Shown here piece after piece: positions 2,764 to 42,848 of a stretch of 47,680 bases of DNA. The DNA is taken from assembly GCA_003331935.1 (NCBI GenBank), contig QOQE01000014.1, positions 1 to 47,680 of the forward strand. The letters run 5' to 3'. The translations under genes and the position numbers were made by a program. The DNA is from Alphaproteobacteria bacterium (GTDB lineage: Bacteria > Pseudomonadota > Alphaproteobacteria > Rhodobacterales > Rhodobacteraceae). The number at the start of each line of letters is the position of its first letter. Position 1 is the first letter of the stretch. The notes under the pieces were generated by a model that was not told where the DNA came from, did no database searches, and saw nothing but the letters and a program-made list of their open reading frames with translations.

Positions 2764-2843
2764 TAGCAATTAATTAAAGTCAGATTTTTTATTAACCAAA
2801 TTTCTTGTAAGTTAAGCACTTTTGTAATACGCTTTGAAATTAT

Positions 2844-2990
2844 CGGGAGAAACTAGTAATAGTTGCCGAAGGAGCAACCGCCCCGGAAACTCTCAGGCAA
2901 AAAGGACCGGTATATACTATATACTCTGGAGAGAGACCTTAGAAAGGTCCGCCGAAGGGATAACGATCTCAGGCAAATGAACAGAGGGGG
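2844..2990 (+). promoter_or_regulatory. Tandem glycine riboswitch (two aptamers) upstream of gcvTHP
   Basis: Aptamer 1 (about 2845-2933) opens with GGGAGA, then GCCGAAGGAGCAACCGCC, CTCTCAGGCAAAAAGGACCG and the closing CTCTGGAGAG. Aptamer 2 (about 2931-2988) carries GCCGAAGGGATAACG, ATCTCAGGCAAA and ACAGAGGGGG. This is the standard paired glycine aptamer layout (gcvT motif) with a short linker. It lies directly before gcvT, so glycine binding is expected to switch the cleavage operon on. The expression platform downstream is described separately. Confidence 0.95.
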
Positions 2991-3067
2991 CATTCACGGA
3001 TGTGTTTTTTGCACGTCTTGAACGAATGCCGGTAAAAAATATCAAACCGGAAAAAGAAAGGTGAGTT
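2989..3067 (+). promoter_or_regulatory. Putative riboswitch expression platform and gcvT leader
   Basis: The end of aptamer 2 runs into GGCATTC (2989-2995), which can pair with GAATGCC (3024-3030). An inner ATGTG/GCACGT pairing flanks a T-run at about 3004-3010. No long U-tract follows the outer stem, so a plain terminator is not obvious. The ribosome site AAAGGTGAG (3057-3065) lies 27 bases further on. Control could be at transcription or at translation of the TTG-started gcvT; the sequence does not decide. Confidence 0.45.
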
Positions 3068-4201
3068 TTGAATAAGCTTAACAGAACAGCGCTTTATGAT
3101 CTTCATAGATCGCTCGGTGCGAAATCAATACCTTTCGCTGGATACGAAATGCCTGTCAATTACCCTTTAGGGATTATGAAGGAGCACTTGTATTGTAGAA
3201 AGTCTGCGGGGTTGTTCGATGTTAGCCATATGGGACAGTTAATCATTCGGTCTGCCACACAATCTATGCAATCTATCGCTACTGAATTAGAGAAGTTATT
3301 ACCCATCGATATTTTAGGACTTGGAGAAGACAGACAGAGATACGGATTTTTACCGAATAGGCAGGGAGGAATCATAGATGATCTCATGATATCAAATAGA
3401 GGCGATCACTTCTTTGTAGTAATAAATGCCTCCAGAAAAGAAATCGATTTTAAATATTTTAAGGAAAATATTTCCAAAGAAATCGATGTTGAATTGATAA
3501 GTACAAGATCACTTATTGCTATTCAGGGCCCAAAATCAGAAAAAATATTATCTAGTCAAATTGGAGAATTAAGTTCCTTAAATTATCTCGATGTCAAAAA
3601 CTTTACATACAACGGAGAGATACTTTGGGTATCACGATCAGGCTATACCGGGCAAGATGGATTTGAGATATCAATACCAAATAGTTTATGTGAAGTTTTC
3701 TGTAAAAGTATTCTTGAACAAAAAGGGATTGAACCTATTGGACTGGGAGCAAGAGATACCCTTAGACTGGAATGTGGGCTTTGCCTATATGGACAAGACC
3801 TAAACGAGACCATAACCCCAATAGAAGCTGGTTTAAAATGGGCTATACAGAAAGTTAGGCGTACCGGAGGAGAACGAGAGGGAGGTTTTACTGGGCAAGA
3901 GAAGATTTTAGCACAAATCGACACTCCACCTTCTTTCAAAAGAGAGGCTTTTTTCCCTGATGGGAAAGCTCCATTGAGATCTGGCACCAAACTGTTTAGT
4001 GATGATAGCGGCAAGAATGAAATCGGATTAATCACATCTGGTAGTTACTCACCAACTCTTGAAAGACCAATTTCAATGGGATATTTGAATTATACTAAAT
4101 TCAAAGTTGGTGATCCCATTTTTGGTGAACTAAGAACTAAGTTCTTTCCAATAAAACGCACAAAACTACCATTTGTTCCAACTAGTTTTAAAAGAAATTA
4201 A
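3068..4201 (+). CDS. gcvT: Glycine cleavage T protein (aminomethyltransferase)
   Basis: A 377-residue T protein, a normal family length. It transfers the methylene group from the aminomethyl-lipoyl H protein to tetrahydrofolate and releases ammonia. Family landmarks are the N-terminal [66 protein letters not shown] and a C-terminal [17 protein letters not shown]. The start must be TTG at 3068: the in-frame codon two before it is a stop, and AAAGGTGAG lies at the right distance upstream. First gene of gcvT-gcvH-gcvP, 14 bases before gcvH, under the tandem glycine riboswitch. Confidence 0.96.
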
Positions 4202-9801: not shown

Positions 9802-11004
9802 TTACAAAACCTCGAAGAGACCTGCAGCTCCCATACCGCCACCGACACACATAGTGCAAACAACGAACTTTGCATTTCGTCGCTTCCCTTCAATTAATGC
9901 ATGACCTACAATTCGAGCACCCGTCATACCAAATGGGTGACCTATAGATATTCCCCCACCATTTACATTTAGAATTTCATTAGGGATACCCAATCGATCT
10001 CTGCAGTAAATTACTTGACTTGCAAAAGCTTCATTAAGCTCCCAGAGATCAATATCGTCCATTTTTAACCCACTATTTTTCAGAAGCTTTGGTACCGCAT
10101 ATACCGGACCTATCCCCATTTCATCTGGATTGCACCCCGCTACTGCCATCCCTCTATAAACCCCCAGTGGATTCAAGCCCCTTCTCTCTGCCTCTTTTGA
10201 CTCCATTAAAACACTTGCTGAGGCTCCATCCGATAATTGTGAGGCATTGCCTGCAGTGATGTGACTACCTTCATTTATATGAATGCCATCTTTAAAAACG
10301 GGTTTGAGTGCAAGCAAGCCCTCCAAACTCGTATCGGGACGGTTCCCCTCATCCTTCATTAAATTTACTTCATGGTAAGTCTCAACTTTGGTTTCTTTAT
10401 CAAAGTATTTCATTATCGACTTCAGAGGAACAATTTCATCATCCATTAACCCTTTTCTTTGCGCAGCCGCCGTTCGCAATTGGGATTGTAACGCATACTC
10501 ATCCTGTTGTTCACGTGATATCCCATATCGATCTGCTACTGTTTCAGCTGTTTCGATCATAGTCATGTATAGATCAGGTATTTCACTCACAAGCCAAGGA
10601 TCTCTTGCATTATCTGTTCTAAAATTTTCATTTCTGACTAACGAGACGGATTCCACTCCACCTCCCACGGTAACATTCATTCCATCATCAATTATTTGTT
10701 TAGCAGCGGTCGCAATCGCCATCATGCCGGATGCACACTGCCTGTCTATTGACATACCAGCAACACTTGTGGGAAGGCCTGCCCTAAGCAACGATTGTCT
10801 AGCAATATTACCCTGCTGTGTGCCTTGTTGAGCCGCAGCGCCCAATACTACATCATCAATATCACTAGGTTCTACTTTAGCCCGTTTCACTGCCTCTGAT
10901 ATAGAATGACCCGCTAAGGTTTGAGCATGCGTATTGTTGAACGAACCTCGATATGCTTTACCAATTGGCGTCCTTGCTGTAGATACTATAACTGCTTCTC
11001 TCAT
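9802..11004 (-). CDS. Thiolase (acetyl-CoA C-acyltransferase family)
   Basis: A 400-residue thiolase starting at the ATG at 11004, which has GGAGATAA at proper spacing and gives the family start [16 protein letters not shown] longer frame to 11076 adds 24 residues that do not look like thiolase. Active-site residues are nucleophile C90 in DRQCASGMM, His in [10 protein letters not shown] and the second Cys in [13 protein letters not shown]. It catalyses reversible condensation or cleavage of acyl-CoA and acetyl-CoA; chain-length preference cannot be read. Operon with the MaoC hydratase downstream, and divergent from the BLUF gene at 11096. Confidence 0.93.
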
Positions 11005-11095
11005 CAGAATTATCTCCTTGGTAATCTTGATTTGGTTTGTAACACTGTATACTTTACCATAATAATTTAAGGTCAAATATAATTAAAATTTTACT

Positions 11096-11530
11096 ATGTT
11101 GAATTATATTATTTATTACAGTTTCTCGCGATCCGAAGTGAGCAGTATTGAGCTAGAAGGAATTTTAAGGAAAGCAAGAGACTGGAACCAGGCTCATGAA
11201 ATTACTGGATTGCTGATTTATAGGTTTAATAAAATGTTTAAAAGAGGCAATTTTCTTCAAATTATCGAGGGACCCAAAAATTCAATATTGTTAGCGTGGG
11301 AAAGAATATCGGCTGATCCAAGACATCACACCATAACGGTCCTAGAAGATGGGAACTTTGTGGAGAGAAATTTTTCAGCTTGGTCTATGGGTTTAAAGAA
11401 TCTTGATACTGAGATGCTTCGGGAGGTTCCAGGATTTATTAATATTAATAATGACCATTTTTGGTCAAATCCAAATAATTTGAAGCCTACTGCTCTAGAA
11501 CTATTGAGGAATTTCTATGATATGGGTTAA
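11096..11530 (+). CDS. BLUF-domain blue-light photoreceptor
   Basis: A 144-residue protein in which a BLUF (FAD blue-light) domain fills about residues 1-110. All photocycle residues appear: Y7 in YIIYYS, N31 in RDWNQAHEITG, Q55 in NFLQIIEG, and W96/M98 in FSAWSMGL. Compared with AppA or Slr1694 there are about six extra residues (RFNKMFKRG) in the hairpin just before the key Gln. The remaining 35-45 residues are a short C-terminal tail with no output domain, so it would signal by protein contact. It is divergent from the thiolase gene across about 90 bases. No partner is evident next to it; the cyclase genes nearby are only possible partners. Confidence 0.9.
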   Translation: MLNYIIYYSFSRSEVSSIELEGILRKARDWNQAHEITGLLIYRFNKMFKRGNFLQIIEGPKNSILLAWERISADPRHHTITVLEDGNFVERNFSAWSMGLKNLDTEMLREVPGFININNDHFWSNPNNLKPTALELLRNFYDMG

Positions 11531-14992: not shown

Positions 14993-16300
14993 TTAATAGC
15001 CACAATCCGTTATCAGTACATAGTGATTTTTTGCTACCTCTTTATATTCCGAGGGCGCTGGATCATGGGACAAATCATGAATAGGCGATGGAAGAGGTTT
15101 GAAGTTTAAATCTCTTTCGGACTTCCTCTTATCCGGGTCCGCAATAGGTACCGCTTTCAAAAGATCCTGTGTGTAAGGATGCTGAGGATTACGAAAGATC
15201 GATGGACGAGGCCCTATCTCTACCAGGCGGCCTAAATACATAACACCAACATCATGGCTTACGCGTTCAACAACGGCCATATCATGGCTTATGAATAAAA
15301 AGGAAAGACCCAAATCAACCTGGAGTTCCATCATTAAGTTTAACACTTGTGCCTGTACCGATACGTCCAACGCACTCACTGCTTCATCTGCTATGATCAT
15401 CTTAGGGTTAAGTGCGAGCGCACGCGCAATTGCTATCCGCTGACGCTGGCCACCAGAGAGTTCGTGAGGATAGCGTTGCATGAAACTTCGTGGTAACTTT
15501 ACACGATCAAAGAGATCACCAATCTTCTCTTGCAATACTTCACGCTTCACCGTTCCATAATTACGTAATGGTTCCGCTACTTGATCTACTAACATCATTT
15601 GGGGATTTAATGAAGCAAACGGATCTTGAAAGACCATCTGGATATTACTACGGGCTTCCCGCATATCTTTTGGATTTAGTGATAGTATATTCTGACCGTC
15701 TAAATTCACGTTCCCTGATGTGGGTTCTACCAATCGAATGAGCGATCGGCCTACCGTTGACTTACCACATCCTGATTCCCCTACAAGGGAAAGTGTCTTT
15801 CCTTTCATGATGGTAAAAGATACATCCTCAACAGCATGGACGCGTGCTACTGTTCTGCGAAAGACCCCTCCTTTGACAGGATAGCGGGTCACTAGATTGT
15901 TCACTCTGAGCAAAGGTTCGTTAGTGCCAACAATGGGCTTTAAAGCATTTGTCTTTTTCTCTCCTACTAACCGCATGGGTTCAGGATATTTCTTGCTTGC
16001 CATCTCTCCAAGTTTTGGAACCGCCGCTAAAAGGGCCTTTGTATACTCATGCTGAGGATTATTAAAAATCTCATGCACCGTTCCCTCCTCAACTTTTCTA
16101 CCTTGGTACATAACCACCACGCGATCGGCCATTTGCGCTACCACCGCCATGTCATGCGTAATAAACATCACGGCTGTACCTGTTTCTTCCTTTAACCTAT
16201 TAATTAAGGCAAGAATCTCTGCTTGAATGGTGACATCCAGTGCCGTTGTTGGTTCATCGGCAATTAAAAGTCTTGGCTGGCACGCTAATGCGATAGCAAT
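14993..16300. repeat. Near-identical long repeat, copy 1 (in ABC ATPase gene)
   Basis: This block aligns without gaps to 41046-42353 at a constant offset of 26,053 bases, in the same orientation. In a 137-base sample (15121-15257) I count 7 differences. Similarity falls off sharply beyond about 16300 towards the start of the gene and stops just past the stop codon. It looks like recent duplication or gene conversion confined to the last two thirds of the gene. Confidence 0.9.
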
Positions 16301-16822
16301 TACTACCCTCTGCCTCATTCCACCAGAAAGCTCATGTGGGAATTGCTTTAATCGTCTTTCAGGCTCGGGTATTTTGGCCATAGTCATGAGCTCTAAAGCT
16401 TTTTTCTTAGCTTCTGACTTTGAAAACCCTTTATGAACTATCAGTCCCTCGGTTAATTGTCGTTCAACAGTAAAAACTGGATTAAGCGCTGTCATAGGCT
16501 CCTGAAATATCATTCCTATCTCATTACCTCTGATATTTCTCATTTGTGATTGCTTAGAGACTGCAACGTCAATCATGCCCTTCTCACCTCGATTGAACAT
16601 CAGTTTGCCTCCAGCTAAGGCACCTCCACCAAACTCTACAAGTCTCATCATAGAGAGAGAGGAAACAGATTTTCCTGAACCCGATTCCCCTACCAAACAT
16701 ACCGTTTGCTGCGGTTTTATCTGAAAAGAAATATCTTCAACTGCAACCACCCGCCCATCTTTTGTGTCGAACTCTACCCGTAAGTTTTCAAAGGAAGCAA
16801 GGGGTTCATTTTCGTCAAGCAT
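14993..16822 (-). CDS. Peptide-type ABC transporter, fused dual ATPase (DppD-DppF type), system 1
   Basis: About 609 residues holding two complete ATPase domains in one chain. The first has Walker A GESGSGKS and signature LSGGMRQRV; the second, from about residue 300, has GESGCGKST and LSGGQRQRI. Each has an IADEP-type Walker B ([24 protein letters not shown]) and an oligopeptide C-terminal extension ([20 protein letters not shown]). I chose the ATG at 16822; the frame extends to a TTG at 16870 without family-like sequence. It powers the divergent binding protein and permeases at 16995-20651. From about base 16300 to the stop it is nearly identical to the system 2 ATPase at 41046, but its first domain is clearly different. 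Confidence 0.92.
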
Positions 16823-16994
16823 GTGTTTAATTTCGACTCTTTTGTTAACTATTTCGAATCCATGATACAACTTGAATTACATCATTTACAATGACAAAAC
16901 GATATTGCATACTCAATCTCTGCTTATAACGGGTTTTGGAATCAGATACCTGTAACCTTTTCTGATTTTAGGCCCTTAACTTGGGAGAAATTAT

Positions 16995-21990: not shown

Positions 21991-22299
21991 TTAACCTACA
22001 ACCTCACCTAACATCATTATCGGATTTGTATTGTAATAGTTTCCGATATCCTTAAATACAGGGCCACCTTTCTTCATCGCAGCTCTCATCTCGTCATTGT
22101 TTTCAAAAATAACTGTAGCAATTGCGTAATAAGGGGAGGGCACGTCCTTCCCGCCTGACATGCCTTTTGTGACGATCATGTTTTGTATATGATCTGACCA
22201 ATTTTCCCTAATTATTGCTAAGTGCTTCTCAACGTAATAGTCGATATCAAAATTCGTGTCATCATTTATTGGGTACACTACCTGCATTGATACTGCCAT
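21991..22299 (-). CDS. EthD-family protein
   Basis: A 102-residue ferredoxin-like-fold protein of the EthD family. It has the usual pattern VVYPINDDTNFDIDYYVEKH near the start, YYAIATVIFENNDEMRAAM in the middle and a final dimer strand NYYNTNPIMMLGEV. Such proteins are small dimeric enzymes or accessory proteins in oxidative degradation (first known beside ethyl tert-butyl ether oxidation). Its substrate is not evident. It lies 11 bases after the receiver-cyclase gene in the same direction, so it may share the signalling operon transcript. Confidence 0.8.
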   Translation of the reverse strand: MAVSMQVVYPINDDTNFDIDYYVEKHLAIIRENWSDHIQNMIVTKGMSGGKDVPSPYYAIATVIFENNDEMRAAMKKGGPVFKDIGNYYNTNPIMMLGEVVG

Positions 22300-22310
22300 T
22301 TTATTCTCTC

Positions 22311-23360
22311 CTAACTATTGACCCCAAGAAGTTGCAAAACCTCTATATTATTGTCACTTTTAAGTTTCATTAAGCCTTTTGATTTCACATCGACATCACT
22401 TCTGACTGACATCCAAGCTTCGTTAGAAATCAAAATCTCATTAGGCTCCGTTCTATCGCATATATTAAACGCTGTATTTACATTACCGCCCAACACATCA
22501 AACTGAAAGCTCTTTTTTCCAATTAGCCCTGCTACCAATGGTCCTGAGTGTATGCCTATATGTATTGCCCAATTTGGGTCGGACTCTATAGCTATTTTTT
22601 TTAAGTTAATTGCACATCGAGAGGCTGCGAGTACCTGATTATCTAAACTTCTGGTCAAGCCTCCAGTCGCTAATATGGCATCGCCAACCGTCTTTATTTT
22701 CTCTAAACCAAATTTTTCAATTTCACTTTCAAATTTTTCAAATATCTCTTGTAGATTTTCCACTACATTTTCAGGCGGATTAGATTCACAAAAGGCAGTA
22801 AACCCAACAAGATCACATACCAAAATTGCAATGTCCTCATATTTTCTAGGCCTTACTAAGCCAGATGAGTTTAGCTCTTCTGCTATTTTTTCTGGTAGAA
22901 TCTGTTTCAAAAATGCTTGAGTTCTTTTTTTGTCTGCCTCTACTTTACTTAGATAGTTTTCTTCACTATCTCTAAACCGCTTCTTTTCAAGACATGCAGA
23001 AACACGTGCTTTAAGTAGCGTGGCATTGATTGGTTTTGTAATGTAATCTTCTGCGCCATTGCTTATACATTCTGCCGTTGTCTCAATCTCGTCTGCTGCA
23101 GTTACCATTACAACTGGGATACCACGATTTTTTGGATCAGCCTTAAGGGTTTTAAGCACATCCAAACCACTTATGTCTGGCATCATTAAGTCAAGCAATA
23201 TGAGATCAAAGCTTTCTTCTTTTACCAACTCTAAAGCTTTTTTCCCGCAATCAGCCTGACTAATTTCAGTATACCCGTTCCTTGATAGTCTTCTTTCAAG
23301 AGTAAATCTGTTATCTTCAATATCGTCAACTATAAGTATTTTTTGGTTAAAAGAATTCAT
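22311..23360 (-). CDS. Response regulator with class III adenylate cyclase output
   Basis: A 349-residue protein. Residues 1-125 are a receiver with acidic pair D12/D13, phosphoacceptor D57 in LILLDLMMPD and K109 in YITKP. A helical linker (about 128-172) leads to a class III cyclase domain (175-345): metal ligands D183 (CDLVGFT) and D227 (KTVGDAI), purine-selecting K223 and D288 (FQFDVLGG), which predict ATP as substrate, and N295. The transition-state arginine four residues after N295 is N299 instead, so activity is uncertain. Third gene of the kinase operon, one base after the receiver gene. Phosphorylation by the upstream kinase is a strong inference from this order. Confidence 0.9.
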   Translation of the reverse strand: MNSFNQKILIVDDIEDNRFTLERRLSRNGYTEISQADCGKKALELVKEESFDLILLDLMMPDISGLDVLKTLKADPKNRGIPVVMVTAADEIETTAECISNGAEDYITKPINATLLKARVSACLEKKRFRDSEENYLSKVEADKKRTQAFLKQILPEKIAEELNSSGLVRPRKYEDIAILVCDLVGFTAFCESNPPENVVENLQEIFEKFESEIEKFGLEKIKTVGDAILATGGLTRSLDNQVLAASRCAINLKKIAIESDPNWAIHIGIHSGPLVAGLIGKKSFQFDVLGGNVNTAFNICDRTEPNEILISNEAWMSVRSDVDVKSKGLMKLKSDNNIEVLQLLGVNS

Positions 23361-23361
23361 G

Positions 23362-23733
23362 CTATCCTGGAACTTCTATAAATTTGCCAATCTTTTCGAG
23401 CAGTCTTTTTATATCAACAGGTTTCGTATCATAATCGCTACACCCCGCCTTTAAAGCCCTATCGCGATGTTCTGGCATCGCATGAGCGGATAAAGCTATA
23501 ACCGGAATATCTTTTACTGCTTCGATCTCTTTAATTTTAGCAGTGGCCGTCCAACCATCCATCGTTGGCAAACTCAAATCCATTAAAATAAGATCAGGAG
23601 ATTCGTCTATCGCCTTGTCTATACCTTCTTGACCATCACCCGCAATTATAATATCGAACCCTTTCTTTTTTAAACGACGGGTAAGCATATAGATATTATC
23701 AGCGTTATCCTCTACATATAAAATCTTGGTCAT
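23362..23733 (-). CDS. Single-domain response regulator (DivK-like)
   Basis: A 123-residue stand-alone receiver with acidic residues E8/D9, phosphoacceptor D52 in LILMDLSLPTMDGW, the signalling Ser in VIALSAHAM and Lys in YDTKPVD. The sequence around the phosphosite and the AHAM motif resemble DivK and other Asp-relay receivers linked to hybrid kinases. No output domain, so it probably carries phosphate between the kinase and another partner or inhibits the kinase. Its start overlaps the kinase stop (ATGA), and it ends one base before the receiver-cyclase starts, a tight three-gene unit. Confidence 0.93.
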   Translation of the reverse strand: MTKILYVEDNADNIYMLTRRLKKKGFDIIIAGDGQEGIDKAIDESPDLILMDLSLPTMDGWTATAKIKEIEAVKDIPVIALSAHAMPEHRDRALKAGCSDYDTKPVDIKRLLEKIGKFIEVPG

Positions 23734-26700
23734 TCATTGCCTCCCGCAACTGATTCAATCGTCTCAACTAGTTGATCAGCTATTCCAATGTCAGTCATAG
23801 ACGATTTTTCTAACACGCGGGTAGTTTCAGATGATAAGAACTTTTTATCATTTTCGTCTAAATCAGCTCCCGTAATCACAACTACTGGTACCTGATTTTT
23901 ATAATCTTTTCGATAAAACTCTAAGAACTCAAAACCATTCATTTTTGGCATCATTAGATCTAGAAGAATCAAATCTGGTTTCTTGCTAGTCTTGTTATCT
24001 AATATTTCCAAAGCTTCCCTTCCGTTGCATGCTTCCAACACATGGTAGTCGGCACCCGTGAGAGCCTCTTTTATAGTGAACCTCAAGTCTTCATTATCTT
24101 CCACTATCATAATAACTTTTCCGGGTTTGCTGCCTAGCAGTTTGCCTATAGATCCGATTAATCTATCTCTCTCTACTGGTTTTGATAGGTAGTCAGCTGC
24201 CCCTAATGAGAAGCCCTTTTTCTTTTCATCAATTATAGAAGCCATTACTACAGGAATATGCGCAACTTCTTTGTCTGCTTTCAACGTACGCAATACCGAC
24301 CATCCATCCATCTCGGGCATCAAAATATCCAAAGTAATAGCATCGGGTTTATATTCTCTGGCCATCTTTATACCTTGAGCTCCATCAAGTGCTTGGAGTA
24401 CGCTAAAATTATTTTTTTCCAGGTGTCTGGTCATGAGATCTCTAATTGTGGGATCATCATCGATAACCAAAATTGTACTTCTTCCATCTTTCTTTGATAC
24501 TAAAGCAGTTTCTCGATTGAGACTCTCCAAATCCTCAGCATCGATATCAGATGTTCCTTCAATTTCAACATCCTGAATAGTAACGGTAAATGTTGTTCCT
24601 TTACCTAATTCACTTTTGACCGCAACGTCACCTCCCATTAATCTTGCAAGATTTTGCACGATAGTAAGACCGAGGCCTGTCCCTCCGTATTTCCTTGTGG
24701 TAGACGCATCAGCTTGGGTGAATGCCTGAAATAGCTTATCGATTTGCTCTTGCGTCATACCGATTCCAGAGTCGTTTACATCAATCTGAATAAGTTTCGT
24801 TTTTGAGCTGTTTCTGACTTTTACGTCTATAGAAATCTCACCATTTTCACAAAATTTAGCAGCATTTGAAATTAAGTTAAGAACAATTTGCTTAGTCCGA
24901 GTTACATCTGCATTAATAAAAGTGATGCTTGGTTCTATATTCAGCAAAAGTTTATTGCTCTTTTGTTCAACCAAAGTTCGAGAGGTGTCAGCGACTTCCT
25001 CTAACAAGGCTGGCAATGAAAAGCTTTCATTGTATAATTCAACCTTTCCAGCCTCTATCTTGGATAAATCTAGAACATCATTTATAAGATTAAGCAGATG
25101 TTTGCTTGCTCCGTGGATACGCTCTAAAGGCTCCAAATAATCATCATTTCCATCATCCTCTGCATCCTCTTTTAGCATTTCGGTTAACCCGATTACAGCA
25201 TTTAGTGGCGTTCTAAGCTCATGGCTCATGTTTGCCAAAAACTGGCTTTTTGCCTTATTAGCTCCATCAGCTTGCTCTTTGGCAACATTTAGTTCTTCGA
25301 CAATTGTTTCTAGATCTAACTCTCTTTGTTTTAAATCAGTAATATCTGAGAAAATTTGGATGAGCGATTTGTCGGGCAGTCGCCGACTTGAGATTTGTAA
25401 CATCCTTCCTTCTTTTGTAGGAGGCAAATAATTGATCTCTGTACCTGTTATGGCATTTCTTTCCTTTACTCTATTTTCTACCCATTTTTCAAAATCTTCA
25501 TCGGAAAGATTTAAAATTCCACTAGTTATGAAGAGCTTTGATGCTTCCCTAAAGGTTTGCCCGACTTCCAGAGCTTCACCAAATATTGTTTCCATATAAT
25601 TGTTAGAAAGCGATAGTTTATCATCTTTGTCCCAATATAAAATTCCCGCCTCAATATTATTGATAGCGTTACTAACCAGCTGTTGTGCCTCTTCAACTTT
25701 TATTTCTAAAGCTTTCCTTTTTTCAATATTTTCAACAATACCAGTTAGTTTTATTGCCCTTCCTTTTTCAAAGGTTGCTTTGGCTCTAGTTTCATACCAA
25801 TATTCTGATCCGTCACTCATTCTATTCAAATGCTCAACCCTGACCTCATCGGAATTACCCTTTATATGCTCTTTGAATGCATTTATGTAATCTTCTCGAT
25901 ATTCCTCTTTTATGAGTTTGTATGCATCGTCAGCATTGACCATTAAATTAGTATCAACATCTCCCCACTCATTGCTTAAATTCTCAGGCACCTCATACAT
26001 TATTTTTCCGGAGAGCAAATCACTCTCGAACACTATGGAGTTTAAGTCGCCTAATACTCGTGAAAACCTCTCTTTTTGAAGTTCCACTACCTCCTCATGC
26101 TTTTTCTGTTCGGATATATCGGTGAAGTTCTGTATAAATCCTCCATCGTCTAGCATTCTTGATGTTGCCAAAAAAGTTAAGTCACCCATTTTTGATTCAA
26201 CGGTTATTCCTTCTTTGTTTTCAAGCATTCTGCCTTTTTGTATGCCCATATACTCTTCAACACTTATGCCCTTGGGTAAGGTTAGACCTCTCTTAAGAAG
26301 ATGATTTAGCATATCTCGGCGATCAACACCTGGCTTTAAATCATAACCCCAATCTCTCTTATTTCTAACTCTGGCAGCATCATTACAGAAGAATAACTTG
26401 TTCTCAGCGTCCCAAATAGTGACTGGGTTTACAAGCTTATCAACGCCATCATATAATCGTTCTAATTCAGCCTGTTTTTCTTTGATTTCAGATATATCGG
26501 TGTAACTTTGTATGTAGCTTCCATCATCCAGTCCTACTGTATTTGCTATCCAATTTCCTAATTCAATAGTAACACCTGTCTTACTTGACTTCAGTTTTTG
26601 CCAACTCTGGCTTATGTACTCATCAATAGTTTGCTTGGGTGGCAAGCTGAATAATCCGATCTTTATGGAGTTCTTTATCAGTTGTCGCCTGTGTACACCT

Positions 26701-29147
26701 ATTTTTAAATCAAAACCAAAGTTTTTTTGAACCTCAACTGCAGCCTTATTGCAAAAAGCAACCTTATGATCTGAGTCCCACAAAATTGTTGCATTATTCA
26801 AAACGTCTATACCGTTATAAATACGATTTAAATCCTGTTCTCGTTTTCTCAGCTCCGTCACATTTGAAACAGTTTGAATCCAGTCACCACTATTCAATCT
26901 AAAGCCAGTTACCATAGCGAAAATAGTTTCGCCTTTATATTCTGTTTCAAACTCTATGCTAGCTCCCTCGCCATCCTTAGAAGCAGCATCAACTCTTTTC
27001 ATAAAGTCTTTGTGGACCTTCTCTGCCGAACTAGAGCCGTAATCCATTGCCCCTTTATTAATTTGATTCCGAAGCATATCAATTCTTGATACCCCTGCAT
27101 CTAATTGAAAACCAATATTTTGTTGAAAATCTCTAAGGTTCTTATTAGCGTATATAAGCCTATCATCTTTATCCCAAAACGCCATCCCAGTTCCCATTTG
27201 CTCTAGCCCTTCTTGAAGGCGTAAAAGCTCTTTTTCCTTCTTTCTTAATTCTGTAATGTTTGCATAACTTTGGATATATGAACCATCTTCAAGAAGTTTT
27301 ACGGAATATAGTAATGTCTTTTCATTTACATTTATTTCACCTTGCAAGCCTTCTGGGTTTTCTTTCATTAATTCCATGGACTCATCAATCCATTCTTTAA
27401 TAGATTTCCCTTTTGGTACAGGAGAGGCATTCTTTGCTTCCTGGTTTTTAAGCATATCGTGCCTTGAGACCCCTGGCTCAAACTGGAAACCTATTTCACC
27501 TTGCACTTGCTTCATGGATTCATTTGAAAATAGGAGCTTATGGTCCTTGTCCCAAACGACAATTCCTGTTTGCATCGTATCTATTGCATCGGTAAGTCTT
27601 TTCAAAGAAAGCTCTCTAGTTTTCTGCTCAGTTATATTTGTAGTCGTTGTAATATAATCTCCGCTACTTAACCGTTGCGCACTATTAAGCATAAAGTTTT
27701 TTTCACCCTTCCACTCGCTTTCAATTTCACGGGTAACCGCCTCATCTGACGAGTCCATCATCTGAATAAATTTCTTATGATAATCCTCTGCTGACTCATT
27801 ACCCAGAGACAGCCCACCTTTTTTGAAAGAATTGTCTAACATATCCAACCGGTTAGTCCCAGGCTTCATGTCGAATCCATAGTCACTTTGGAAATCACGC
27901 ATAATTTTATTTGCGTAAACTAAATTGTCTTCAGAGTCCCAATAAGCCATTGCAGTGGACATCTGGTCAACGCCGTCTCGAAGTCGCTCAAGCTCTTTTT
28001 CCTGATTTTTTAGATGTGTTACATCTGAAATCACTTGAAGAACATTCCCATCCTCAAGCTTTTTTTCTGTAACCATTGAATAAGTGCCATCGCCCAATTT
28101 GTAAGTTGTAGTATTTTCACCTTCAAAATTTTCAAAGTACGATATACCTTTTTCAATCCAGCCTTCTTTGGTTTCATTAGGAGGCAGCTCATAAAAATCA
28201 TTCTCTACCTGACTTGTCATTGATTCCTTCCAGGTCATACCAACTTCAGTTTTTATTCCGAAATCATCATTTCTCTTTTTTAAGTATTTGTTGAATCGGA
28301 GCAGTCGCTTGTTTTTATCCCACAGCTGAATCCCATAGGACATGTTATCTATAGAGGAAGATAGGATCTTTTCTTGGACTTCTTTTTCCTCAAGCTCGGT
28401 TACGTCGTTTAATATCGTTAGAATACCACCATCATCCAGCTTATTTTCGGTTCTAATAACAGTCTTGCCATCTCTATATTTTATTTTCGTAGATTTGGAA
28501 GTTAGCTCTGCTCTTTCTTTTATTCTCTTTTTTACAAAATCTTCAACCACAAAATTTTCAGGCACTGAATAAAGACCCGCTGAAAACTGATTAGTTAGAA
28601 ATTCTGCATAGGTCATTCCTTCCTTAAGATGTATGCCTTCGGATGCATTCTCCTTTCTAGCGAGCTCATTTACTTTAATTAGCTTTTCTTCTTTATCCCA
28701 AAACATCACATGCGAAGGAATTGAGTCTATCGCATTCGAAAGCCTCGACTGCATGATATCTCTTTTCTTTCTTTCTGTAACGTCAATGACAACGGTAATC
28801 ATATGGCCATTGTTTGAAGCTGTTTCTCTAATATTGTACCAATCTCCTCCATCAGCTTCAAACTCATCTTCAAGGGAAAGTTTTTCTTGCCTTGCTTTTT
28901 CCCTCAATGAAAATCTTTTTTTTATATTTTCTTCGCTATGGATAGTGTCAGGCATACTTGCCACATCGTTCCAAGCCTTTTTAAAATTTATGCCCAAAGA
29001 GGGTTTTATAAGCAGGTTCTTTTCTAAAACATCACCATAAATCCTATTAAAACCGATAAGATTATCGTTCTCATCCCAAATTCCTAAACCCTGTTTTGCG
29101 TTATCAAACGCATCTAACATGGCCTGCATAGCTCCGTTATCTGTCAT
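23730..29147 (-). CDS. Giant soluble hybrid histidine kinase with ten PAS domains and two receivers
   Basis: About 1805 residues from the ATG at 29147, which has GGTGGAG before it; a TTG at 29165 is weaker. Ten PAS domains follow at a spacing of about 126 residues, marked by WD pairs near residues 23, 149, 275, 401, 531, 657, 789, 912 and 1172; a different PAS without the WD pair lies near 1035. Then comes HisKA with phospho-acceptor H1309 in ANMSHELRTPLNAV, the ATPase domain (NLISNAAKF, DSGIGM, GGTGLGLTI), receiver 1 (LDILMPEMDG) and receiver 2 (LLDLMMPKMNG, with LEKSS instead of the usual KP). I see no membrane segment or signal peptide, so it should sense inside the cell. First gene of an operon with a receiver and a receiver-cyclase. 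Confidence 0.93.
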   Translation of the reverse strand: MTDNGAMQAMLDAFDNAKQGLGIWDENDNLIGFNRIYGDVLEKNLLIKPSLGINFKKAWNDVASMPDTIHSEENIKKRFSLREKARQEKLSLEDEFEADGGDWYNIRETASNNGHMITVVIDVTERKKRDIMQSRLSNAIDSIPSHVMFWDKEEKLIKVNELARKENASEGIHLKEGMTYAEFLTNQFSAGLYSVPENFVVEDFVKKRIKERAELTSKSTKIKYRDGKTVIRTENKLDDGGILTILNDVTELEEKEVQEKILSSSIDNMSYGIQLWDKNKRLLRFNKYLKKRNDDFGIKTEVGMTWKESMTSQVENDFYELPPNETKEGWIEKGISYFENFEGENTTTYKLGDGTYSMVTEKKLEDGNVLQVISDVTHLKNQEKELERLRDGVDQMSTAMAYWDSEDNLVYANKIMRDFQSDYGFDMKPGTNRLDMLDNSFKKGGLSLGNESAEDYHKKFIQMMDSSDEAVTREIESEWKGEKNFMLNSAQRLSSGDYITTTTNITEQKTRELSLKRLTDAIDTMQTGIVVWDKDHKLLFSNESMKQVQGEIGFQFEPGVSRHDMLKNQEAKNASPVPKGKSIKEWIDESMELMKENPEGLQGEINVNEKTLLYSVKLLEDGSYIQSYANITELRKKEKELLRLQEGLEQMGTGMAFWDKDDRLIYANKNLRDFQQNIGFQLDAGVSRIDMLRNQINKGAMDYGSSSAEKVHKDFMKRVDAASKDGEGASIEFETEYKGETIFAMVTGFRLNSGDWIQTVSNVTELRKREQDLNRIYNGIDVLNNATILWDSDHKVAFCNKAAVEVQKNFGFDLKIGVHRRQLIKNSIKIGLFSLPPKQTIDEYISQSWQKLKSSKTGVTIELGNWIANTVGLDDGSYIQSYTDISEIKEKQAELERLYDGVDKLVNPVTIWDAENKLFFCNDAARVRNKRDWGYDLKPGVDRRDMLNHLLKRGLTLPKGISVEEYMGIQKGRMLENKEGITVESKMGDLTFLATSRMLDDGGFIQNFTDISEQKKHEEVVELQKERFSRVLGDLNSIVFESDLLSGKIMYEVPENLSNEWGDVDTNLMVNADDAYKLIKEEYREDYINAFKEHIKGNSDEVRVEHLNRMSDGSEYWYETRAKATFEKGRAIKLTGIVENIEKRKALEIKVEEAQQLVSNAINNIEAGILYWDKDDKLSLSNNYMETIFGEALEVGQTFREASKLFITSGILNLSDEDFEKWVENRVKERNAITGTEINYLPPTKEGRMLQISSRRLPDKSLIQIFSDITDLKQRELDLETIVEELNVAKEQADGANKAKSQFLANMSHELRTPLNAVIGLTEMLKEDAEDDGNDDYLEPLERIHGASKHLLNLINDVLDLSKIEAGKVELYNESFSLPALLEEVADTSRTLVEQKSNKLLLNIEPSITFINADVTRTKQIVLNLISNAAKFCENGEISIDVKVRNSSKTKLIQIDVNDSGIGMTQEQIDKLFQAFTQADASTTRKYGGTGLGLTIVQNLARLMGGDVAVKSELGKGTTFTVTIQDVEIEGTSDIDAEDLESLNRETALVSKKDGRSTILVIDDDPTIRDLMTRHLEKNNFSVLQALDGAQGIKMAREYKPDAITLDILMPEMDGWSVLRTLKADKEVAHIPVVMASIIDEKKKGFSLGAADYLSKPVERDRLIGSIGKLLGSKPGKVIMIVEDNEDLRFTIKEALTGADYHVLEACNGREALEILDNKTSKKPDLILLDLMMPKMNGFEFLEFYRKDYKNQVPVVVITGADLDENDKKFLSSETTRVLEKSSMTDIGIADQLVETIESVAGGNE

Positions 29148-29235
29148 AAAAAACTCCACCAACAAAAGAGAACAAATTCAATAATTTGCTCTCATTCAAT
29201 TAAATATCGATTCGTTGAAAATTTGAATTGATTTT

Positions 29236-29769
29236 TTAAAATTCAATTAAGTATTTGGATTCAATTCCTATATCTTGTAATTTTTTCAAACCTCCCAATT
29301 GTGGGAGATTTATAACAAATCCAGCTCCTAGAACGTTTTTATTCTTAAATTTAGCTATAAGATCTAGAGCAGCTATTACTGTCCCTCCGGTAGCTAAGAG
29401 GTCATCAATTATTAAAAGGTTTTTGTGACCATCTAAGGCATCTTTATGTATGTGCATATCCGTAGCGCCATATTCCAACTCATATGAGACACTATAAGTC
29501 TCCCAAGGTAATTTTTGAGGCTTTCTCAAAGGGATAAAAGCAGCGTCAAGATTACATGCTAGTGCTCCAGCCATAATAAACCCTCTAGACTCAATGCTTA
29601 GAATTGCATCTATTTCAACATCAGCCCATTGCTTTGTCATTCCATCAATCATCTTTTTGAAAAGACTGGCATTTTGAAGAAGGGTTGTAATATCTCTAAA
29701 TTGCACACCCTTAACAGGATAATCAGGTACCGTCCTTATACTATCTTTAAGATCTTGAAACTCTTTCAT
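29236..29769 (-). CDS. apt: Adenine phosphoribosyltransferase
   Basis: A 177-residue enzyme of normal length that makes AMP from adenine and PRPP. The PRPP-binding loop LLIIDDLLATGGT lies at 118-130, with the family segments VKGVQFRDITTLL (near the start) and SIESRGFIMAGALA (57-71). The ATG at 29769 lies inside the end of the upstream permease gene, overlapping by 23 bases, so the two are co-transcribed. Identification is secure. Confidence 0.95.
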   Translation of the reverse strand: MKEFQDLKDSIRTVPDYPVKGVQFRDITTLLQNASLFKKMIDGMTKQWADVEIDAILSIESRGFIMAGALACNLDAAFIPLRKPQKLPWETYSVSYELEYGATDMHIHKDALDGHKNLLIIDDLLATGGTVIAALDLIAKFKNKNVLGAGFVINLPQLGGLKKLQDIGIESKYLIEF

Positions 29770-31865: not shown

Positions 31866-33389
31866 ATGAGCCGTAGGAGAGGTGCACGTTCCAGGGCATC
31901 ACTGGGTATAGACGCTGATAGGCCTGCTTTTGTATTGCAAGCTTTTGGCGATCATCTAAACACGCTTACAAACAAAGAAAAGCATGAGATCAACGACGGT
32001 GTATTACACATATTATCTGAAATAGGTTTCGAACAACTTCCCAGATTTTTAGAGTGCTTTATTGATAATAAAACTATTATTAAGAAAAATAACAGATACT
32101 GTTTTGGGATTGAGCTTATTGAGCAATGCTTAAGTTCAACAAATAATGAAATTCTACTATATAGACAAAATCAGGAAGGCTACTTAAGTCTTTCAAATGG
32201 AAACGTTTACTGCGGCACAGGGGGTGCAGCTCCACTTATTTTGGATTTCAAAAAAAAAATTTACCGGCCCTCATTAAAGAAAGATCTTTTGAGTGCAGCA
32301 AGAGTAGTCGATAAACAAGAGAACCTTAGTTTTTTTTCAAGACCTCTAGTGTTGACAGATGTTTCGGATCCAGATCTCATGGATATATATACTGCGGTCA
32401 TATCGTTATCTGCTACTCAAAAGCATGTTATGACTAGTGTCACAAATCACAGAACCGTCGAAAAACTCGCTAAGGTCTGCTATCTATTAGCTGGTGGAGA
32501 AGGCGCTTTTAGGAAATCCCCTTTCTTATCTTTAAATATCAACTTCATAGTTCCCCCACTTAGGCTAGAGCCCGAAGCATGCGAAGTTATGAAAGAGAGT
32601 GTTAAATACGGTATTCCCATTATGGCCAACGTTTTTGGCCAGAGGGGAGCATCGAGCCCGGTTAGTGTTGTTGGATCTGTTTGCCAAACGATCGCAGAGA
32701 CATTATCCGGCTTACTTATATGCTGGCTTTTGGACCCGAATTCTAAAGTCATTTGTGGCCCTAGATCTATGGTAACGGATCTAAGGACAGGTGGTATGGC
32801 TGGAGGAAGCGGGGAACAAGCTCAAACGTCCTCGTTATTGAGTCAAATGATGCGTTACTACAATCTCCCAAACTCCTCAATTGCGGGGGCATCAGATAGC
32901 AACATTCCTGATTACCAAGCCGGTTATGAGAAAGCTCTTACAATAGCAACCTCAGCTCAGTCGGGGGCAAACTTAATAACCCAAGCAAGCGGTATGCTTA
33001 GCAGTCTCATGGGAGTATCCCTGGAGTCATTTATTCTTGATAATGAACTATGCGGGTCTGTCCTAAGCTCGATGCGTAGCGTAGACGTGGCGGCTTTGGA
33101 CAATGATCTAAAGTCAATAAAACGCGTAATTATGCAGGATAAACACTTTCTAGGGGAATATGATACCTTGAAAAGAATGAACACAGACTTCAATTATCCA
33201 AAGTCCGCGAAAAGATTATCGCCTGATATTTGGATGCAGGAGAAAGATAATATAATGTTAAACGAAGCCAATAAAAACCTTGAAGGATTACTTTCTGGTA
33301 ATTTTGAAAGCCACGTCAGCGAGGAAACTCTTAAAAAAATAGAGACCGATTTTGATATCAATTTGGACGTAGTTTATGGACAAAGCTAA
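31866..33389 (+). CDS. MttB-family (trimethylamine methyltransferase-like) protein, non-pyrrolysine
   Basis: A 507-residue COG5598/MttB-family protein. The start MSRRRGARSRAS and the segments NGNVYCGTGGAAP, DLMDIYTAVISLSATQKHV, SSPVSVVGSVCQTIAE and TDLRTGGMAGGSGEQA are family-like. It reads through without an amber codon, so it belongs to the non-pyrrolysine group. Studied members demethylate glycine betaine or other quaternary amines and pass the methyl to a corrinoid protein. No corrinoid protein or methylcobamide:THF methyltransferase gene is adjacent. The ATG has no Shine-Dalgarno sequence. The stop abuts the 3' end of a convergent tRNA gene. Confidence 0.85.
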   Translation: MSRRRGARSRASLGIDADRPAFVLQAFGDHLNTLTNKEKHEINDGVLHILSEIGFEQLPRFLECFIDNKTIIKKNNRYCFGIELIEQCLSSTNNEILLYRQNQEGYLSLSNGNVYCGTGGAAPLILDFKKKIYRPSLKKDLLSAARVVDKQENLSFFSRPLVLTDVSDPDLMDIYTAVISLSATQKHVMTSVTNHRTVEKLAKVCYLLAGGEGAFRKSPFLSLNINFIVPPLRLEPEACEVMKESVKYGIPIMANVFGQRGASSPVSVVGSVCQTIAETLSGLLICWLLDPNSKVICGPRSMVTDLRTGGMAGGSGEQAQTSSLLSQMMRYYNLPNSSIAGASDSNIPDYQAGYEKALTIATSAQSGANLITQASGMLSSLMGVSLESFILDNELCGSVLSSMRSVDVAALDNDLKSIKRVIMQDKHFLGEYDTLKRMNTDFNYPKSAKRLSPDIWMQEKDNIMLNEANKNLEGLLSGNFESHVSEETLKKIETDFDINLDVVYGQS

Positions 33390-33466
33390 TGGCGATGACG
33401 GAAGGATTCGAACCCTCGACCCCCAGAGCCGAAATCTGGTGCTCTATCCAGCTGAGCTACGTCACC
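33390..33466 (-). tRNA. tRNA-Arg, anticodon TCG
   Basis: A full cloverleaf of 77 bases including an encoded CCA. Acceptor GGTGACG pairs with CGTCATC (one G-T pair), D-arm GCTC/GAGC, anticodon stem CCAGA/TCTGG with loop TTTCGGC (anticodon TCG, G at 37), T-arm with TTCGAAT. It would read CGA and possibly other CGN codons. Its CCA end directly touches the stop codon of the convergent MttB-family gene. Confidence 0.95.
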
Positions 33467-41045: not shown

Positions 41046-42353
41046 TTAATAGCCACAATCAGTTGTCAGTACATAGTGATCTTTTGCTACCTCTTTATAT
41101 TCTGAGGGTACTGGGTCATGGGACAGATCATGAATAGGCGATGGAAGTGGTTTGAAGTTTAAATCTCTTTCGGACTTCCTCTTATCTGGGTCCGCAATGG
41201 GTACCGCTTTTAATAAATCCTGTGTGTAAGGATGCTGAGGATTACGAAAGATCGATGGACGAGGCCCAATCTCTACCAGGCGGCCTAAATACATAACACC
41301 AACATCATGACTGACCCGCTCAACAACAGCCATATCGTGGCTGATGAATAAAAAGGAAAGACCCAAATCAACCTGGAGTTCCATCATTAAATTTAATACT
41401 TGAGCTTGTACCGATACATCTAATGCACTCACTGCTTCATCTGCTATGATCATCTTAGGGTTAAGCGCCAATGCACGCGCAATTGCTATCCGCTGACGCT
41501 GGCCACCCGAAAGTTGATGCGGAAAGCGCCGCATAAAACTTCGTGGTAGCTTTACACGATCAAAGAGATCACCAATCTTCTCTTGCAATACTTCACGCTT
41601 CACCGTTCCGTAATTACGTAACGGTTCCGCTACTTGATCAAAAAGTGGTCGTTGTGGGTTTAATGATGAAAACGGATCTTGAAAGACCATCTGGATATTG
41701 CTACGGGCTTCCCGCATATCCTTTGGATTTAGTGATAGTATATTCTGACCGTCTAAATTCACGTTCCCTGATGTGGGTTCTACCAATCGAATGAGCGAGC
41801 GTCCCACCGTTGACTTACCACATCCTGATTCCCCAACAAGCGAAAGTGTCTTTCCTTTCATGATAGTGAAAGAGACATCCTCAACAGCGTGAACACGTGC
41901 TACCGTTCGTCTCAACACACCCCCTTTTACCGGGTAGCGGGTTACCAAATTATTCACTTTAAGTAGTGGCTCATTCGTTCCAACAATGGGCTTTAAAGCA
42001 TTTGTCTTTTTCTCTCCTACTAACCGCATGGGTTCGGGATATTTCTTGCTTGCCATCTCGCCAAGTTTGGGGACCGCTGCTAAAAGGGCCTTTGTATACT
42101 CATGCTGAGGATTATTAAAAATCTCATGCACCGTTCCCTCCTCAACTTTTTGACCTGGATGCATTACCACAACACGATCTGCCATTTGCGCTACCACCGC
42201 CATGTCATGTGTAATAAACATCACTGCCGTACCTGTTTCTTGTTTGAGCATATTAATCAAAGCGAGTATCTCTGCTTGAATGGTGACATCCAGTGCCGTT
42301 GTTGGCTCATCCGCGATCAAGATTTTTGGCTGGCACGCTAGAGCTATTGCAAT
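41046..42353. repeat. Near-identical long repeat, copy 2 (in ABC ATPase gene)
   Basis: Partner of the block at 14993-16300, same orientation, constant offset of 26,053 bases with no gaps. It begins just past the ATPase stop codon and ends inside the first ATPase domain near the Walker B region. Confidence 0.9.
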
Positions 42354-42848
42354 CATAACTCTTTGTCGTTGTCCACCAGAAAGCTGGAAAGGATAATCAA
42401 AAGCTCTTTTATCTGGATTAGGAATTTTCACAGCATCTAGTAACTCAACCGCACTCGCCCATGCTTTTTCTTTATTTAGATTTTTATGCCGCCTGATAAC
42501 TTCTGAAACCTGTTCTCCGACTGTAAAAAGAGGATTTAGAGAAGTCATCGGCTCTTGAAATATCATTGAAATTTCATTACCTCTTATACCCTCAAGCTCT
42601 GCCTCTGATAATCGAGCTAGATTAATGTTGTCAAATAAGATGTCTCCTGATGAAACCTTTAATATTCCCTCAGGCAATAAGCTCATCAACGACAATGCTG
42701 TTACAGATTTTCCACAACCTGACTCTCCAACAACACACAAAGTCTCACTTTTTTTTATAGTAAAAGAGAGATCGTTTACCACTTTCAGCGTGCCAGCTCT
42801 TGTTCTTGCCTCTATATTCAGTTTATTTATCGAAACTAGGTCTTCCAT
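41046..42848 (-). CDS. Peptide-type ABC transporter, fused dual ATPase (DppD-DppF type), system 2
   Basis: A 600-residue chain with two ATPase domains: Walker A GESGCGKS in both, signature LSGGQRQRV and LSGGQRQRI, Walker [11 protein letters not shown] and [10 protein letters not shown]. Its ATG overlaps the stop of the upstream permease by one base (TAATG), so it belongs firmly to system 2. From about residue 165 to the end it is nearly the same as the system 1 ATPase (14993), whereas the first domain differs in most positions outside motifs. Gene conversion or partial replacement is the likely cause. Confidence 0.94.

Follow-up and report, generated by a model that had tools for sequence, protein, structure and literature searches.

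The window analysed here is the whole 47,680-nucleotide (nt) stretch, positions 1 to 47,680, of contig QOQE01000014.1 from an alphaproteobacterium of the Rhodobacteraceae (assembly GCA_003331935.1; 1.56 Mb, 90% complete). It contains a three-gene operon encoding a hybrid histidine kinase, a lone receiver and a receiver fused to a class III cyclase (Table 1). Two receivers on the kinase, the lone receiver and the receiver of the receiver-cyclase make up four in all, in agreement with the count given in an initial annotation of this DNA that was made from its letters alone. An in-frame TTG provides an alternative start for the kinase and would lengthen the open reading frame (ORF) to 29165. The EthD-family ORF is assigned by NCBIfam TIGR02118 (54.9 bits against a cut-off of 30.5), and a Pfam scan of this ORF gave no match. 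Its co-transcription with the operon, which had also been suggested, is plausible from the short gap, but in one congeneric genome, G008, no EthD match lies beside the operon.

Table 1 Features of the operon and its surroundings in the window
Feature	Position	Strand	Remarks
EthD-family ORF	21991-22299	minus	11-nt gap after receiver-cyclase; possibly co-transcribed
Receiver-class III cyclase	22311-23360	minus	349 aa; 1-nt gap after lone receiver
Class III cyclase domain	22329-22850	minus	D183, K223, D227, D288 and N295 retained
Asn299 codon at the canonical transition-state Arg site	22464-22466	minus	
Single-domain (lone) receiver	23362-23733	minus	123 aa; 4-nt ATGA overlap with kinase
Hybrid histidine kinase (10 PAS + HisKA + HATPase + 2 receivers)	23730-29147	minus	1805 aa, ATG start
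Kinase receiver 2, Asp1730	23780-24116	minus	limits approximate, placed by eye
Kinase receiver 1, Asp1607	24153-24473	minus	Pfam
HATPase_c	24573-24908	minus	Pfam
HisKA, His1309	25047-25253	minus	Pfam
PAS array of kinase, units 1-10	25320-29135	minus	part differing in blocks between relatives
PAS unit 10	25320-25691	minus	
PAS unit 9 (PAS_3-like)	25692-26093	minus	
PAS unit 8	26094-26471	minus	
PAS unit 7	26472-26837	minus	
PAS unit 6	26838-27233	minus	
PAS unit 5	27234-27611	minus	
PAS unit 4	27612-27998	minus	
PAS unit 3	27999-28379	minus	
PAS unit 2	28380-28757	minus	
PAS unit 1	28758-29135	minus	
37-nt block 5' of kinase	29199-29235	minus	possible promoter or regulatory site
apt-like gene (adenine phosphoribosyltransferase, name by eye)	29236-29769	minus	

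Pfam profiles detect PAS_7 (eight stretches), PAS_3, HisKA, HATPase_c and two Response_reg domains in the kinase. A profile made from the protein's own repeats brings the PAS total to ten, consisting of nine PAS_7-like domains and a PAS_3-like one at position 9. Hydropathy analysis found no membrane segment (highest 19-residue Kyte-Doolittle mean, 1.10), which bears out the description of a soluble multi-PAS hybrid kinase with two receivers of its own. The H box, the G1 and G2 boxes and both receiver aspartates are present, and by these sequence criteria the protein is a hybrid histidine kinase predicted to autophosphorylate and to carry out phosphotransfer. The genome contains six HisKA matches and, in the 90% that is present, no HPt match at E 0.001. 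All of its nine PAS_7 matches sit within this single kinase. One PAS_7 unit, folded with the other eight units as its alignment, gives a confident PAS fold (predicted local distance difference test score, pLDDT, 88.5). Its fold matches in the PDB are PAS domains of many kinds, including haem-containing, FAD-containing and unliganded ones, and therefore suggest no ligand. A LOV light sensor was considered and rejected, the GxNCRFL motif being absent from all 13 kinase sequences.

The operon was compared among 22 genomes of the genus, including its own, all of them drafts in 28 to about 90 contigs and 58-91% complete. The receiver-cyclase is present in full in 13 of them. In all 12 relatives with a full cyclase the order kinase, lone receiver, receiver-cyclase is the same (in G012 the contig stops inside the kinase), and across the 12 loci identity to the proteins encoded here is 85-90% for the lone receiver and 87-95% for the receiver-cyclase. 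Three more genomes (G009, G015 and G018) have fragments of the locus at contig ends. The initial annotation had regarded the three genes as one signalling unit and proposed to ask whether their orthologues stay together in related genomes; their adjacency in 12 of 12 congeneric loci supports that view. The unit itself is thus conserved as had been thought, but one sequence could not reveal the block-wise differences that its PAS array shows among relatives.

Twelve arrays are complete, and all 12 kinases that carry them are open frames. When the arrays are cut into units and typed by shared units of at least 75% identity, they fall into five types: type A (G000, G001, G005, G006 and G020), type B (G008 and G019), type C (G007, G002 and G014) and the arrays of G011 and G016, each a type of its own, the latter having three of its ten units in common with type C and three with G020. 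The PAS number is 10 in eight arrays, 11 in two and 12 in two. Two partial arrays bring further variety: in G015, units 1 and 2 match G019/G011 at 97% and 88%, unit 3 matches type A at 75%, unit 7 resembles unit 6 of G016 (77%) and the remaining four reach at most 52% with any other, and in G009 the best matches of the five full units range from 48 to 74%. Array length changes by a whole domain between G007 and its type C relatives G002 and G014, which differ from it by an exact 390-nt, phase-0 (in-frame) insertion or deletion of a single PAS at an inter-PAS linker; the extra PAS is at the identical place in G002 and G014. The G+C content of the arrays (35-37%) equals that of the kinase cores, and the donors of the arrays are therefore probably relatives.

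Evidence that arrays are exchanged comes from divergence at synonymous sites (ps). Between G005 and G016, ps is 0.05-0.07 in FdhA, MttB and SDR on one flank and 0.03-0.07 in the receiver-cyclase (0.07), EthD, DppC, DppB and SBP on the other; MT and EamA give 0.18 and 0.24. In contrast, apt (0.75), the kinase core (0.54) and the lone receiver (0.51) are highly divergent, and the first seven 130-codon windows of the array are only 32-59% identical at the amino-acid (aa) level. The divergent block, comprising apt, array, core and lone receiver, is about 6.4 kb long. A third genome, G020, was compared with these two by scoring informative sites as like G005 or like G016. Its apt (132:10), PAS1 (152:4) and PAS2 (116:9) are like G005, as are PAS3-7 by unit identity, whereas PAS8 (26:85), PAS9 (11:121), PAS10 (12:149), the core (17:218) and the lone receiver (3:39) are like G016. 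From these site patterns the G020 array is a recombinant. A second case involves G019 and G008, in which nine flanking genes have ps values of 0.69-0.82 and the core is 78% identical at the aa level (ps 0.79); PAS2-9 are 88-94% identical with ps values of only 0.39-0.63, and PAS1 and PAS10 are unlike. As judged by synonymous divergence, the array shared by G019 and G008 is younger than its flanks.

Consistently, the array does not follow the rest of the locus across the genus. In Mantel tests against flank distance over 12 genomes, rho is 0.09 for the array (p 0.26) and 0.16 for apt, as opposed to 0.71 for the receiver-cyclase, 0.76 for the lone receiver and 0.72 for the kinase core. The contrast persists without G008 (array 0.10 versus 0.51-0.59). 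When the 12-59 syntenic genes of a genome pair are ranked by conservation, the kinase comes last in 9 of the 12 pairs tested; each of the other three pairs has an array type in common. Taken together, these sequence comparisons show block-wise differences between arrays, a recombinant array in at least one genome and array lengths that vary in steps of whole domains; the transmitter and the outputs, by contrast, have stayed orthologous. The reading that we consider well supported, with some room for doubt, is that the operon belongs to a known and widespread type and that in this genus its cytoplasmic sensor has become an exchangeable PAS_7 array joined to an orthologous transmitter and orthologous outputs.

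Several observations weigh against this reading. Clustering of units at a loose threshold of 40% identity by the unweighted pair group method with arithmetic mean (UPGMA) gives families that all 12 arrays share at units 1-3 and at the last three positions; the middle units alone vary in family, order and number. Because their family is constant under this loose threshold, the outer units are better described as old diverged alleles of fixed positions than as unrelated modules; only in the middle does the array look like shuffled modules. Type A in G000 differs from its four sharers with a ps of about 0.70, which equals the level of its flanks and so fits plain descent. Outside the operon, informative sites in two further G020 genes, MT and DppC, also favour G016 (by 37:8 and 12:4), and exchange is seen in other genes too, DppB and DppC. 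The test for the least conserved gene covered 12 of 66 genome pairs, and the Mantel contrast depends on the two most distant genomes: once both G000 and G008 are left out, no gene tested correlates. In addition, six of the 22 genomes (G003, G004, G010, G013, G017 and G021; drafts 58-77% complete) show neither the cyclase nor the neighbouring EamA orthologue, and true absence and an assembly gap are indistinguishable there.

Three observations, namely the low conservation of the kinase among syntenic genes, the constant families of the outer units and the age of type A in G000, would be expected if the arrays had evolved fast under relaxed constraint, or had diverged in place as old alleles with occasional duplication and no exchange. 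This explanation is very improbable. The ratio of nonsynonymous to synonymous divergence (pn/ps) is 0.05-0.11 in five within-type or shared-unit comparisons, indicating at the sequence level that arrays within types are under strong purifying selection. Moreover, G020 changes parents within the kinase gene, the units common to G019 and G008 are younger than their flanks, and G016 and G005 differ through the array with eight little-diverged genes on the two sides of it.

The array differences could also be assembly artefacts, with tandem repeats collapsed or chimeric in drafts. Repeat arrays are hard to assemble, and in G009, G012, G015 and G018 a contig breaks off within the kinase or the cyclase gene; in drafts with such ends at the locus, misassembly is a risk for single arrays. 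As an account of the whole pattern it is very unlikely, however. Array types are shared between separate genomes, every complete kinase is an open frame and the additional PAS occupies one and the same place in G002 and G014. Furthermore, PAS_7 units inside one array are on average only 26-28% identical (maximum 46%), which is too unlike for easy confusion.

If arrays are exchanged, the exchange may still be neutral, the array having moved like any gene and its types being functionally equivalent. Exchanged tracts are found in DppB, DppC, MT and other flanks as well. We nevertheless regard neutral exchange of arrays as rather unlikely: among the genes compared, the exchanged tracts of DppB and DppC are at least 83% identical; the array, by contrast, varies both in what it contains and in how many domains it has. 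As a control, eight long PAS_7 kinase loci from other genera were collected, and they yielded one comparable pair, G309/G220, with two units each. This pair looks vertical, with 66% identity over the whole protein and 63% and 68% in the units. Spread by phage was rejected, since a scan of viral contigs with a single protein, which reaches close relatives only, returned no relative.

The exchanged tract probably also takes in neighbours of the array. Those seen to co-vary with the kinase are apt and the lone receiver, small ORFs being outside the search, and several genome comparisons show the apt allele moving together with the PAS array. In G002 the ORF matching apt has only 73 aa (L042, 6688-6909). 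The lone receiver has Response_reg alone above the Pfam cut-off. Its description as DivK-like holds as far as a 123-aa single-domain receiver is meant, but in a one-way comparison with the PDB, PleD is the best match (76.5 bits) ahead of DivK (70.4 bits). The gap between apt and the kinase is 53-88 nt long and contains the 37-nt block of Table 1, which is well conserved across 12 aligned spacers and whose 17-nt core pattern occurs a single time in the genome. Within it, GAATC is present in the 12 spacers; we take it to be a GANTC (CcrM-type) site, which might connect the operon with the cell cycle. A terminator-like hairpin at 29168-29193 in the same spacer was rejected because it is not conserved among the 12 aligned spacers, and such hairpins are no commoner in the region than in shuffles (5 found against a mean of 7.0).

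The output end of the operon departs from a standard cyclase at one position. The third gene encodes Response_reg and Guanylate_cyc domains (the latter at 106.7 bits against a cut-off of 21.9), and its structural model matches 5o5l (TMt 0.85) as well as the CyaC structures 1wc1 and 1wc3. In alignment, D183 and D227, presumably the metal-binding aspartates, K223 and D288, presumably the adenine-specifying pair, and Asn295 are retained. Asn295 and a canonical Arg are taken to stabilize the transition state, and the Arg position is Asn299 in 13 of 13 cyclases of the genus. Among outside homologues aligned, 32 of 33 have Arg there; the lone exception, L074 from an Anaerolineae record (10375-11412), is the receiver-cyclase of a similar operon, is degenerate at other sites too and lacks most catalytic residues, so that it is an apparent pseudo-cyclase retained in its operon. 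The alignment also included, besides the cyclase of the operon, seven of the 12 class III matches in the 1.56-Mb genome. L034 (at a contig end) and L038 were unreadable, and the five readable ones all have Arg. One further class III cyclase ORF lies in the same contig (7566-9335, plus strand). The protein is thus a class III cyclase by its predicted fold, with an incomplete catalytic set.

The route to cyclic AMP (cAMP) proposed in the initial annotation keeps its receiver and its class III cyclase fold, but it is weakened. It is uncertain because Asn replaces the transition-state Arg in all 13 genus cyclases, and the only three matches for cyclic-nucleotide binding in the genome are all in short ORFs of 116-154 aa. 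The receiver-cyclase may even be catalytically dead and serve as a protein-binding or ATP-binding output, an alternative that deserves serious attention although we lean away from it. The Asn in every genus copy speaks for it. Against it, both metal aspartates, Lys223/Asp288 and Asn295 are kept, and the cyclase domain is 93-95% identical in 11 of 12 comparisons within the genus (83% in G008), in which synonymous sites are near-saturated. Furthermore, loss of this Arg in other class III cyclases tends to lower activity rather than abolish it.

How an exchangeable sensor would work with a fixed output can be sketched on the basis of these comparisons. Arrays would be exchanged by homologous recombination, with one end of the tract towards EamA and apt and the other either within the kinase core or immediately past the lone receiver. 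Compatible helical linkers would join the modules, so that any chain could still drive HisKA, and internal cues would alter PAS units and act through the linker helices on HisKA, each array type presumably reading a different combination of cues. Because no HPt was found, direct transfer from His1309 is proposed: it would pass phosphate to all four receivers of the operon, and the two inside the kinase may serve as sinks or brakes. Since the transition-state Arg is lacking, the cyclase is proposed to make cAMP weakly or to have changed its output. Array exchange would then let a lineage change its inputs without touching its outputs. It is conceivable, and we put this forward tentatively, that the locus is a combinatorial cassette array, in which whole units from a PAS_7 pool are swapped, gained and lost at one syntenic locus, each lineage thereby coupling its own set of internal cues to an unchanged phosphorelay, diversifying or frequency-dependent selection across species maintains the array types, and the cyclase has been retuned by the loss of Arg.

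An exchangeable array bears on the question of how bacteria alter the sensing of a pathway without breaking the pathway. A conserved output half and a block-variable input half, together with the recombinant and the single-PAS length change, provide natural swap experiments, which could address the cue of each PAS unit, the effect of its position in the chain and the relation of repertoire to niche. If the reading of an exchangeable array is true, a hypervariable locus can be a soluble sensor, not only a surface or secreted part.

Other features of the window lie apart from the operon. Tandem glycine riboswitch aptamers (2834-2994, plus strand) are directly 5' of a gcvT-like ORF (3068-4201), which is followed by gcvH- and gcvP-like ORFs (names by eye). 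A BLUF-like photoreceptor ORF (by eye) is located at 11096-11530 on the plus strand. Two dipeptide-ABC ATPase genes (by eye; 14993-16870 and 41046-42848, both minus) are 89% identical over 1342 nt, suggesting duplication or gene conversion within the contig. An MttB-type, trimethylamine methyltransferase-like ORF (by eye; 31866-33389, plus strand) adjoins tRNA-Arg(tcg) at 33390-33466.

The gene set of the operon is not new. Two short patterns for the receiver-cyclase were used to search a collection of species genomes, and the best 80 of at least 568 confirmed matches were read with small domain profiles made for this analysis; 53 of these loci, in which no receiver-cyclase was called, do not enter the counts. 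A kinase and a lone receiver stand alongside in 11 of the remaining 27, a rough count because of the short patterns, the restriction to the best 80 and the small profiles. Receivers were seen on the kinase in 8 of these 11. Another 11 of the 27 hold one of the two partners and five hold neither. By record title the 11 complete sets include Alpha-, Beta- and Gammaproteobacteria, Microcoleus and Anaerolineae, and the novelty of the set, which the initial annotation had left open, was therefore rejected. The three genes occur in identical order in Rhodospirillaceae SI072_bin63 (L066), Microcoleus (L067), Methylocystis (L069), Odyssella (L075) and SAR116 (L078). In L068, L069, L070 and L078, extra kinase-like matches that may be weak or false precede the receiver in the cyclase gene (HK-HK-REC-CYC).

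These outside operons resemble the present one in a kinase core with two receivers, and the closest receiver-cyclase among the matches listed, that of L066, is 46% identical. They differ at both ends of the pathway. Their cyclases keep the Arg, except that of L074, where the genus has Asn. Nine outside kinases scanned (L075 incomplete) carry GAF plus one PAS_7, a few PAS, Cache-HAMP, 4HB_MCP-HAMP, GAF or HAMP, and the array of 10-12 units is found here and in none of the nine. This suggests a reusable module of transmitter and outputs whose inputs can be interchanged over deep evolutionary time. Receiver-linked cyclases such as CyaC of Spirulina likewise place a class III cyclase under receiver control. 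CyaC is a single fused protein with an intact catalytic set, unlike the three proteins and the Asn described here.

A long PAS chain before the kinase core is known from other multi-PAS histidine kinases, and ten PAS as a record was rejected, up to 19 being reported for a single kinase in Aulosira and other cyanobacteria (PMC10468136). Within the same class, three of eight kinase loci hold 5, 6 and 8 PAS_7-like matches. No description of exchanged or variable PAS arrays, or of this operon as a system, was found in the open PubMed Central literature, which is weak evidence. Pherotype sensor kinases, among them ComP and AgrC, are located in the membrane and encoded adjacent to the signal gene. 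In streptococci, ComD is described as a polymorphic sensor kinase whose types are shared by S. mitis and S. pseudopneumoniae and whose variation parallels the variation of a secreted peptide signal (PMC5629823). As in pherotype kinases, a polymorphic sensor on a conserved transmitter is shared across species here. Pherotype kinases are matched to a secreted peptide, whereas the present kinase is soluble and the neighbours seen to vary with it are apt and the lone receiver. Among described systems, the polymorphic pherotype kinases, of which ComD is one, offer the nearest analogy to the exchangeable PAS array.

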